From: Halomicroarcula saliterrae
GTDB taxonomy: Archaea > Halobacteriota > Halobacteria > Halobacteriales > Haloarculaceae
Direction: 5' to 3'
Length of the DNA: 64,000 bases
Assembly: GCF_031624395.1 (NCBI RefSeq)
Contig: NZ_JAMQON010000001.1
Location: 1 to 64,000, forward strand
The position numbers and the translations under genes are program-made. Below are positions 30,362-32,859 of the stretch, in pieces. Below the pieces are notes generated by a model, which searched no databases, was not told the DNA's origin, and was given only the letters and a program-made list of their open reading frames with translations. Each line of letters opens with the position of its first letter. Position 1 is the stretch's first letter.

Positions 30362-31018
30362 CTATCCGTCAGTGGCTGGCACGGTGCCCGACACCAGCCC
30401 GAGATACCCGCCGCCGAACGTCTCGTAGCGGCGGTCGACCGTCCGCTCGGTGAGCCGTCGCCGCGCGGCAGCGACTCGCTGCTCGAAGCTGTCGGCGTGT
30501 GACCGCGTCGAGAGGCGTGTTCCCGGCGCCGAGAGCCGGACGAACCCCTCGAAGGCGAGGTCCAGCGGCGCCGCGACCGGGCGGCCGCTGCGCTGGAAGT
30601 TCAGCAGCGCCACCCGCCCCCCCGGCACCACGCAGTCACACCACGAATCAACGGCCGCCGCCGGGTCGGGGAAGACGCCGGCCACGAAGCTCCCGAGGAC
30701 GGCGTCGACACCCCGTACCGGCGGCCGGGTCGCGTCGGCCCGGAGATAGTCGACGCCGGGGCCGGTTCGCTCGGCGTGTCGCCGCGCCGCACGGAGCATC
30801 TCGCGGGTGATGTCCAGCCCGACCACGCGTCCCGAGGGCCCGACCCGCTCGCGGAGTTCGGGGACGTTCGCGCCCGTCCCACACCCCATCTCGACGGCGG
30901 TGTCGCCCGGGGCGAGGTCCAGCGCGTCGACGGCGCCCGCCCGCCAGGACCGCAGGAGGGGGACTCTGGCCACGCGGTCGTACAGCGACGCCCACCGCTC
31001 GTAGAACTGTCCGCTCAC
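30362..31018 (-). CDS. Class I SAM-dependent methyltransferase
   Basis: 218 residues from a GTG at 31018, whose GTGA overlaps the ThiR stop codon. An earlier ATG within thiR is open but less likely. Motif I is intact (AVEMGCGTGANVPEL near 45), followed by VVGLDITREMLRAARR and DAVLGSFVAGVFPDPAAAVDSW. This resembles UbiE/phospholipid methyltransferases with the N-terminal FYERWASLYDRV. It is the last gene of the dcd-thiR operon. Substrate unknown. Confidence 0.82.
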   Translation of the reverse strand: MSGQFYERWASLYDRVARVPLLRSWRAGAVDALDLAPGDTAVEMGCGTGANVPELRERVGPSGRVVGLDITREMLRAARRHAERTGPGVDYLRADATRPPVRGVDAVLGSFVAGVFPDPAAAVDSWCDCVVPGGRVALLNFQRSGRPVAAPLDLAFEGFVRLSAPGTRLSTRSHADSFEQRVAAARRRLTERTVDRRYETFGGGYLGLVSGTVPATDG

Positions 31019-31908
31019 AGGATATCGCGGGCCCATTCGGCGACCGTTACCGCGTCGGGACCGAGCAGATAGACGACCGGTTCGACGCCCATCCCCCCGG
31101 TCTGGTAGATGACGTCGGCGTCGCCGTCGGCGAGCGCTTCGGCGATGCCCGGCTCGATGGACGCCTCGGCGTCGAACTCGACGGCGGTGTGGCCCGCCGA
31201 CTCCAGCGCCGTGACGACTGACTCGTCGTAGCGGACGTTCAGCCCGGCCCGCGCCCCACTGCCGGCCGCGCGGGCGGCGAGCACCACCGACGCGACGTGC
31301 TCGCTCACGCCGAACTCCGGGTCGGCGGGAATCGTCGCCCGTCCCTTCACGTCGAGAATCCGGCCCGGAACGGCGGCCACGTCGTCGATACCGTCCCCTT
31401 CGGGGAGCGCCTGCACGAGGTTCGACCCGACCGCCGGGATGAGCGTCGCGAAGCCGCTGGTGTTTTCGAGCACCCGGAGCCCCCGCCGGACCGACGACAG
31501 CGTCCGCTCGGCGGCCCGGAGCTGGGAGTCCGGGTCGTGGACGGCGAACTCGCTGTCGTAGTCGGCCAGCCCCGGTACGGCGTCCTCGTGGAGCATGGCG
31601 AGCACCCCGCCCTGTTCGAGCTCGCGGATCAACACTTCCGTCTCGACGAGCGCCTGCACGGAGCTCATCTCGCCGCTCGCCAGCCCCTCGGCGACACGGT
31701 CGACGAGTTCGCTCAGCCCGCGGTGGTTCAGTAGCTGTTCGTTGCGCTCTACCTCGCCGTGGACGTACTTCGAGACGGCGCTCTGGCTGATGCCCAGCAG
31801 GTCGGCGACCGCCGACTGGGTGAGGCCGTGCTCCCGGAGCTCCTCGGCCAGCATCGAGCGAAAGGTCGGGAGGAACTCGTCGACGACGATCTCCTCGATG
31901 AAGCGCAT
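31015..31908 (-). CDS. thiR: Thiamine-responsive regulator ThiR (HTH plus ThiN domain)
   Basis: 297 residues. Residues 1-60 form an XRE-like helix-turn-helix (EELREHGLTQSAVADLLGISQSAVSKYVHGEVE). About 125-297 is a ThiN-type thiamine-phosphate synthase domain (VGSNLVQALPEGDGIDDVAAVPGRI, EFGVSEHVASVVLAARA, AGLNVRYDESVV). This fusion is the archaeal regulator ThiR, which represses thiamine genes when thiamine phosphates bind the ThiN domain. Thi4 is encoded 3.5 kb away with a matching palindrome at its promoter. Translation is led by GGAGG in the third junction repeat; methyltransferase follows with overlap. Confidence 0.88.
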   Translation of the reverse strand: MRFIEEIVVDEFLPTFRSMLAEELREHGLTQSAVADLLGISQSAVSKYVHGEVERNEQLLNHRGLSELVDRVAEGLASGEMSSVQALVETEVLIRELEQGGVLAMLHEDAVPGLADYDSEFAVHDPDSQLRAAERTLSSVRRGLRVLENTSGFATLIPAVGSNLVQALPEGDGIDDVAAVPGRILDVKGRATIPADPEFGVSEHVASVVLAARAAGSGARAGLNVRYDESVVTALESAGHTAVEFDAEASIEPGIAEALADGDADVIYQTGGMGVEPVVYLLGPDAVTVAEWARDIL

Positions 31909-31909
31909 C

Positions 31910-31975
31910 TTACTGATCGCCTCCGAACTCCACCGAGTTTCTCACCGATACCGTGATGACACGCACAGCGGTCAT
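31910..31975 (-). CDS. Mini-ORF 2 between dcd and thiR
   Basis: 21 residues, MTAVRVITVSVRNSVEFGGDQ, ending in TAA at 31910-31912. The ATG shares one base with the stop of mini-ORF 1 (TGATG) and is preceded by GGAGG nine bases upstream. Its last six residues EFGGDQ equal those of dcd and mini-ORF 1 because the same 20-25-base junction encodes all three ends. It may be a coupling spacer that relays ribosomes to thiR, or a small protein. No relatives are recognised. Confidence 0.5.
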   Translation of the reverse strand: MTAVRVITVSVRNSVEFGGDQ

Positions 31976-32063
31976 CACTGATCGCCTCCGAACTCACTCG
32001 CTCGCAGCCGAGACGCGGACACGACGCCGCCGGCGTCGGTCATCACTGATCGCCTCCGAACTC
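31911..32063. repeat. Three copies of a stop/Shine-Dalgarno/start junction
   Basis: Copies at 32039-32063 and 31971-31995 are identical over 25 bases, and the third (31911-31930) matches over 19-20. On the minus strand the unit contains GGAGGCGATCAGTGATG: a Shine-Dalgarno extended to near-full 16S complementarity, a stop and an overlapping ATG. The spacing is 68 and 65 bases. The spacers between copies are unrelated, so only the junction is kept. Confidence 0.85.
31975..32043 (-). CDS. Mini-ORF 1 between dcd and thiR
   Basis: 22 residues, [21 protein letters not shown] followed by Q, ending in TGA at 31975-31977. Its ATG at 32043 overlaps the dcd stop by one base, with GGAGG nine bases upstream inside the dcd 3' end. 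It shares the C-terminal EFGGDQ and initial MT with mini-ORF 2, but the middle differs. The arrangement suggests translational coupling through dcd, two mini-ORFs and thiR. Whether the peptide is stable is unknown. Confidence 0.5.
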   Translation of the reverse strand: MTDAGGVVSASRLRASEFGGDQ

Positions 32064-32630
32064 GCGATCCCCCTGTATCTTGCTCGCTTGGGGCCCGGAC
32101 TGGTCCTGGTACTTCGAGCCGCGCTCGGCGCCGTAGGGGCGGTCGGCAGGGGTCTTCAGCTCGGTGAAGGTGAGCTGTGAGATGCGCATGCCCGGCGTGA
32201 GCGCCACGGGTGCGGTGCCGAGATTCGACAGTTCGAGGGTTATCTGGCCCTTGTAGCCGGGGTCGCACAGTCCAGCGGTCGCGTGGACCACGATGGCCAG
32301 CCGGCCCAGCGACGAGCGGCCCTCGACGTGGGCGATGAGGTCGTCGGGAATCTCGACGCGCTCGTGGGTCGTGCCGAGCACGAAGTCGCCGGGATGCAGG
32401 ATGTACTCGCCGCCCTCGTCGACCTCGGTCAGGTCGACGTACTCGTCGACCTCGTTCTCGGTGTTCGGGTGGATACAGGGGATGTTGGCGTGCTGGAACT
32501 CCAGGAACTCGCGGCCGAGCCGCAGGTCCACGCTGGCGGGCTGTATCTGTATGTCTGGGTCGTCGAGCGGTTCGACGACGAGGTCGCCGTCCTCCAGACG
32601 GCGCAGGATATCGGCGTCCGAGAGTATCAT
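32043..32630 (-). CDS. dcd: dCTP deaminase
   Basis: 195 residues. Conserved blocks: [83 protein letters not shown] and [14 protein letters not shown] and the Glu in ITLELSN are the nucleotide-binding and catalytic residues of the trimeric Dcd/dUTPase fold. It converts dCTP to dUTP on the route to dTMP. The C-terminus EFGGDQ carries the Shine-Dalgarno for the next ORF. It is the first gene of an operon with two mini-ORFs, thiR and a methyltransferase. Confidence 0.93.
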
Positions 32631-32859
32631 TACCCGACTTACCGGTGTGGGGCACCTAAAGTATCGTGTCTCGGCGGCGGCCTGTGACCCCGGCGCAGGA
32701 CCCGGCGTGAGTACTTGGGTTCTCTCGCTGTCGTCGCGTCCGAACTGGAACCCGCTGGGCTCGTCCCTCCGGGGTCGTGGACTGTCGACGTCCGTCTCCG
32801 CTGCGGTGACTGAGGTTCTGACAGAAAGTATTTAGTTCAACCCGATAATTACCGCAACG

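Follow-up and report, generated by a model that had tools for sequence, protein, structure and literature searches.

On the minus strand of Halomicroarcula saliterrae the gene for dCTP deaminase (dcd) is followed by a thiR-like gene, and the short interval between them holds two tiny ORFs with the same ending. Why should two genes be joined by a series of repeated junctions, at each of which one reading frame stops and another starts? The window analyzed here is 64,000 nt long (contig NZ_JAMQON010000001.1, positions 1 to 64,000), and the locus within it is made up as follows:

32043..32630, minus strand: dcd, dCTP deaminase, 195 aa (TIGR02274, E 3.5e-66), the upstream gene of the putatively coupled pair.
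32041..32063, minus strand: junction 1, GAGTTCGGAGGCGATCAG-TGATG, the dcd 3' end with the Shine-Dalgarno (SD)-like GGAGGCGATC.
31975..32043, minus strand: mini-ORF1, 22 codons, a 68-nt unit of type A.
32022..32038, minus strand: hairpin CGACGCC-GGC-GGCGTCG, just 3' of the mini-ORF1 start.
31973..31995, minus strand: junction 2, a copy of the dcd end with the TGATG stop/start that opens mini-ORF2.
31910..31975, minus strand: mini-ORF2, 21 codons (MTAVRVITVSVRNSVEFGGDQ), a 65-nt unit of type B.
31954..31977, minus strand: hairpin across the start codon of mini-ORF2 (TGACCGC-NNN-GCG-T-GTCA), in which species differ by compensatory changes.
31906..31930, minus strand: junction 3, a copy of the dcd end with a TAA stop, one base and the thiR ATG (TAAGATG).
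31015..31908, minus strand: thiR-like gene, 297 aa, HTH_3 plus ThiN, the proposed end point of the relay.

The sequence GAGTTCGGAGGCGATCAG followed by a stop occurs at 32063-32046, 31995-31978 and 31930-31913 (minus strand), at spacings of 68 and 65 nt, which confirms the three repeated junctions reported by a first-pass annotation. The 18-nt copies are all identical; across 27 nt two remain identical and the third matches at 81%. Copy 1 is the 3' end of dcd itself (REFGGDQ*), where it makes up the final six codons, and there are only two extra copies. The annotation had also described each junction as encoding EFGGDQ, carrying an SD-like site and ending in a stop followed by a start, and this holds: GGAGGCGATC lies within the 3' end of the upstream cistron in 3/3 junctions and pairs with 9/10 positions of the organism's own 16S tail (GGATCACCTCCT). 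Stop and start overlap or are separated by a very short gap at every junction (TGATG, TGATG, TAAGATG), the dcd stop overlapping the start of mini-ORF1 at the first. A search 15-45 nt upstream of thiR identified no TATA-like 4-mer. The sequence TACTTTAG is present at 32657-32664, about 30 nt 5' of the dcd start, and is likely the TATA box of a near-leaderless dcd-thiR transcript.

ThiR is present in 146/146 same-family genomes and 194/194 class genomes searched, and the dcd-thiR interval was extracted in every genome where dcd is upstream. In 163 haloarchaeal genomes dcd adjoins thiR: 84 are touching (<20 nt between the genes), 65 have a relay (a 20-329 nt gap with 1-5 mini-ORFs leading from the previous stop through to the thiR start) and in the other 14 the bridge is broken. 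Same-family gaps reach 329 nt if bridged, and measure 491 and 775 nt where thiR is unbridged. Direct overlap (ATGA) is the usual state of the two genes in other families and thus probably the ancestral one. Changes between relay and direct overlap, counted on a tree of dcd only, number at least 11 on well-supported branches and 24 by parsimony (an earlier tree with a suspect long split gave nearly equal counts).

The units are 56-74 nt long, each closes with a copy of the dcd end, and up to 5 mini-cistrons follow one another. A pattern for the doubled junction has 36 matches in 142 same-family genomes and its reversed control none; each of the matches listed has dcd 3'-end sequence at the dcd-thiR locus. 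These 36 and a further 26 unit-core matches in the same genomes all bear dcd 3'-end sequence, and they lie at dcd-thiR wherever coordinates could be matched. Among named relatives, the nearest in which the junction is doubled are Haloarcula salina, H. mannanilytica and H. pellucida; Halapricum and Halosimplex are more distant. Unit types recur across species and genera, type A in several other Haloarcula-group genomes and type B in Haloarcula and Halosimplex genomes, and near-identical tandem units occur within single genomes (G093, G022, G021, G001, G005, G006). In Halosimplex salinum (G094) two contigs (L057 and L179) break within the array, each ending in the identical 65-nt unit, and the real unit number probably exceeds the assembled one. 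The alignment of relatives that the annotation had proposed as a check therefore finds the repeats there. A chance tandem duplication or assembly artefact limited to the H. saliterrae genome, for which only the repeat itself speaks, is next to inconceivable given homologous units in many genomes of at least 8 genera, several of them near-complete assemblies. The arrays are confined to a single locus. Pattern searches identified no dispersed copies elsewhere in the organism's own genome, in viral contigs or in plasmids, and a mobile element or dispersed repeat was rejected on these grounds and on the lack of copies elsewhere in the family genomes.

The bridges are kept open beyond chance expectation. 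Under a strict criterion (start overlap of 4 or 1 nt, ATG or GTG, final stop at -10 to +4 of thiR), 60/68 same-family intervals of at least 20 nt pass, where 31.5 are expected after whole dinucleotide shuffling, 40.5 after a shuffle of the spacers with the junctions retained, and 15.2 after a random deletion of 1-2 nt. When each cluster at 70% identity is reduced to a single interval and only gaps of 40-400 nt are counted, 23/28 are open versus 9.4 (P 4e-14) and 14.0 (P ~6e-7) expected from shuffled controls; the genomes are related, and this clustering removes the kinship effect in part only. Short gaps pass readily due to the scarcity of stops in GC-rich haloarchaeal DNA, and only the aggregate is significant, its weight coming from the long gaps. 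Several relays have GTG starts or gaps of up to +7 nt, and three same-family genomes pass a looser criterion only.

Every unit length (56, 62, 65, 68, 71, 74 and 119 nt) leaves a remainder of 2 on division by 3, as is needed to preserve the overlap chain; an apparent 136-nt unit is two 68-nt units merged by the regular expression. The sole exception is the genus containing Halapricum hydrolyticum, with 63-nt units in which the EFGGDQ frame is broken. There, a frame opened at the dcd stop traverses the units to thiR (MSRVSSRGDVAEKRRGVRRRPMSRV...). Different genera thus read homologous DNA in two frames, and both frames remain passable.

What the mini-ORFs encode appears to matter little. The annotation called their middles unrelated, but both belong to unit families known from other species, and they share a degenerate motif (TCGGCGAGAAACGAG..GTTCGG). 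Its suggestion of a pair of functional small proteins is very improbable. Although the frames remain open and the EFGGDQ ends are conserved, with differences of 2/3/20 at codon positions 1/2/3 that are mainly synonymous (16 independent unit pairs), EFGGDQ is the conserved dcd tail, and such a bias is the expected inheritance from copies of a protein-coding end. Across the middles of the same unit pairs the differences are spread evenly (38/26/36), the synonymous share (22/67) is set against 0.27 expected for random change, and codon-level purifying selection along the peptide was not found, only the dcd-derived EFGGDQ end being constrained. The one genus that reads homologous units in another frame (AEKRRGVRRRP), a peptide length that spans 7-65 aa, and touching relatives that have no mini-ORFs also argue against small proteins. 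The amino acid conservation of EFGGDQ leaves room for a role of the hexapeptide, for example in termination.

If passage of ribosomes is what is maintained, genomes with a broken bridge should need another way to express thiR. Beyond gaps of about 20 nt an unbridged thiR should be untranslated, since in Haloferax almost no reinitiation is left once the gap measures 22-23 nt (PMC10666635). In haloarchaea, moreover, an SD site gives no de novo initiation (PMC6728339). These two facts, together with the sufficiency of 15 nt in E. coli cited below, give meaning to the observation that relays and promoter-like boxes exclude one another. A TATA-like 4-mer lies 15-45 nt before thiR in 0/65 relay, 1/84 touching and 11/14 broken genomes (relay vs broken, P 4e-11). 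SD matches of at least 5 nt precede thiR in 44 of the 65 relay genomes, where shuffling predicts 14.9, and in 2 of the 14 broken ones, where it predicts 1.9. In addition, by eye, AGTTAT precedes thiR in 6/6 further genomes without dcd in the examined stretch.

In three genomes of genus g10 (G078 L059, G077 L071, G081 L086) the units 5' of thiR are decayed or non-relaying and are accompanied by AT-rich boxes (TTTTTATG); in two of the three, thiR is also preceded by a GGAGGGAGGA site. This looks like lost coupling and a newly acquired thiR promoter. In another genome (G135, L174), two intact units come after dcd, and roughly 850 bp of other DNA separates them from thiR, which has an AT-rich box close to its start; the units would have persisted after thiR moved away. 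As intact or decayed units are retained in G135, G077 and G078 beside a thiR that looks independently expressed, units also persist without need.

Where the units come from can be partly read from the dcd end. This end is GAGTTCGGAGGCGA in 16/16 Haloarcula-group genomes with units vs 6/16 without (P 2.5e-4; family-wide, P 6e-6), and in unit-bearing genomes third-position variation is zero exactly from the edge of this block, the codons just upstream varying normally. A pair of sister genomes likely captures the insertion step: dcd of G062 ends in GGCGGGGATCAGTAG adjoining thiR, and in G064 the last junction is GGCGGGGATCAGTAG, preceded by a new dcd end (GGAGGCGACCAATGA) and a spacer. We infer that a dcd end plus spacer is inserted by recombination at the dcd end and then multiplied or lost between copies. 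Junctions resemble their own dcd more than the dcd of other genera (1/5000 permutations as good). Recent gene conversion within a genome is not supported, as junctions are no closer to their own dcd than to those of members of the same genus (4037/5000). The annotation credited the identity of the junctions to selection; this may be half the story, because junctions that are copies of the dcd 3' end in a sharp-edged block are explained equally well by copying and recombination.

Many units have a hairpin immediately 3' of the mini-ORF start. The one in mini-ORF1 has a compensated counterpart in G016 (CGAAGCC-AGC-GGCTTCG), and the type B hairpin spans part of the start codon, with compensatory changes in 8 cells vs 2.8 in shuffled data (0/500). 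Another hairpin with a GA/GA internal loop ([stem]-GA-GC-NNN-GC-GA-[stem], with compensated stem changes) is found about 8 nt past the dcd or mini-ORF stop, at a near-constant offset, in 11/52 units (chance 0.0014 per unit) from several genera (g1, g2, g7, g8, g11, g13, g14, g22). It was rejected as a dispersed palindromic repeat, since across genomes the reversed control pattern was at least as frequent. A joint RNAalifold of type A units was discarded because the hairpins were misaligned. One speculation is that a start hairpin would bar stray initiation and open when a ribosome arrives from upstream. The compensatory changes at the type B start codon and the sharing of the GA/GA hairpin by units of several genera could also point to attenuation by a leader peptide, or to a regulatory RNA, in response to thiamine or some other signal. 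This is unlikely, as hairpin types vary between units and are missing from many relays, touching relatives manage without them, and no Rfam riboswitch was identified in the region. The sole Rfam match there, SNORD10, is below its threshold (19.8 vs 37 bits, E 0.17), and a C/D-box-like RNA was rejected on this basis and because its CATCAC stretch is unconserved between species.

Comparative evidence also bears on whether the units benefit their hosts. They may be a neutral repeat that spreads by recombination at the dcd 3' end, brings no advantage and is tolerated while its frame is open, a view that still allows a relay mechanism and to which we give an even chance. The sharp-edged identity of GAGTTCGGAGGCGA in unit-bearing Haloarcula-group genomes, the identical final stop of touching and unit-bearing relatives, and the decayed units found where thiR seems promoter-driven are all consistent with neutrality; the independent, non-homologous bridges described below are left unexplained by it unless selection acts on coupling itself, a point that this view grants. 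Alternatively, each step might lose (or gain) a fixed share of ribosomes, such that the number and make-up of units adaptively set the ratio of ThiR to Dcd. The range of 0-5 units among relatives, the near-identical units repeated in tandem within one genome (G093, G022, G021, G006), as expected of a quick dial, and the hairpins after several mini-ORF starts would fit such tuning, but copy-number variation is also predicted by neutral slippage between repeats, and we consider adaptive tuning possible but doubtful. Slightly more doubtful is a heritable rheostat, in which lineages would set ThiR:Dcd by cistron count rather than by promoter or ribosome-site changes. If it were true, dcd-end cassettes gained and lost by recombination would each be a defined step with a start-site hairpin.

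We consider it probable that a relay of minimal termination-reinitiation cassettes, seeded by the dcd 3' end, keeps thiR coupled to dcd. The coupled chain or ribosome relay proposed in the first-pass annotation is well supported by comparison among genomes. According to this model, thiR has no usable start site of its own and relies on ribosomes fresh from dcd through termination-reinitiation. Each unit of about 56-74 nt would be a complete minimal cistron, the start overlapping the preceding stop and the last codons, copied from the dcd 3' end, supplying the SD-like site for the next start. In E. coli, the final 15 nt of the upstream gene are enough for reinitiation (PMC10666635), about the size of the copied block. 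In H. saliterrae, the ribosome is predicted to pass from dcd to mini-ORF1, mini-ORF2 and thiR, terminating and restarting at each junction, with the act of translation being important and the peptides by-products. Units would originate when the dcd 3' end is duplicated together with a spacer; recombination between junction copies would spread them and alter their number, and selection would purge versions that break the chain unless thiR acquires a promoter. We infer that ribosomes actually use the chain and that thiR has no other start routes.

Some bridges are not built from dcd at all. Bridges of 7-20 codons without dcd-end copies occur in several genera. One genome of family f4 (G260, L219) has a two-step dcd-thiR chain (MTATEPATVIDR, then MTVTGTVIDR) with its own repeated junction (ACGGTGATCGACCGATGA), the sequence of which is unrelated to the H. 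saliterrae units. Among the 194 class genomes the sole doubled junction away from dcd is in another member of f4 (G245, L264:1501-1562), between genes named rps4e and rpl5 from reading of the ORF translations, where a 15-codon mini-ORF (MNSDPRKTKSSGGEK) has a doubled GGAGGTGA..GTGATG junction. It looks like a relay of this type within a ribosomal-protein operon and suggests that further cases exist.

The annotation knew of no description of such an arrangement, which is not quite right given a close precedent in the MIRUs of mycobacteria. PMC12548453, which cites Supply et al. (1997), describes these as short repeats that sit where genes start and contain an ORF with -4 nt coupling to the adjacent gene, so that expression can survive their insertion undisturbed. 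Both are short direct repeats, oriented with the gene and carrying an ORF that is coupled to its neighbour. However, MIRUs are described there as interspersed and seemingly mobile, whereas the haloarchaeal units are confined to dcd-thiR and their last stretch is copied from the 3' end of a host gene, dcd; no homology is claimed. The units may thus work like MIRUs, and are not classed with them because they lack the defining feature of dispersal. The dcd-thiR array can be regarded as a single-locus archaeal counterpart of MIRU, with independent non-homologous bridges elsewhere.

Termination-reinitiation is already known in haloarchaea, and serial repetition of mini-cistrons appears to be the variant here. 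Like the haloarchaeal TeRe pairs (PMC6728339, PMC10666635), the junctions have 4-nt or 1-nt overlaps and an SD-like site in the upstream 3' end, but those pairs consist of two real genes, and here the step is repeated via 1-5 cistrons, each about 7-25 codons in length unless fusion makes it longer. ORF-11/ORF-18 at the integron attI1 site (PMC8876359) is similar in that the translation of a tiny ORF, not its peptide, feeds the next gene; it differs in being bacterial, with a de novo start and a single ORF, where dcd-thiR is a chain fed by an upstream gene. A synthetic 'nonsense' short ORF (PMC13255528) has a ribosome-binding site beside its stop that boosts translation of the next ORF. That construct was engineered in E. 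coli and raises translation, unlike the bridging of a gap at dcd-thiR.

Selection for the coupling of overlapping genes is usually debated from genome-wide overlap statistics. At dcd-thiR, gaps in one gene pair are bridged by mini-ORFs that differ in origin and sequence, and a broken bridge is usually accompanied by a promoter-like box before thiR. These repeated natural experiments bear on whether overlapping genes are selected for coupling or merely end up adjacent. Mini-ORFs of about 20 codons are likely overlooked by gene finders. The haloarchaeal loci also offer natural constructs of 0-5 steps in which the loss per reinitiation step, and serial reinitiation by haloarchaeal ribosomes, could be measured.
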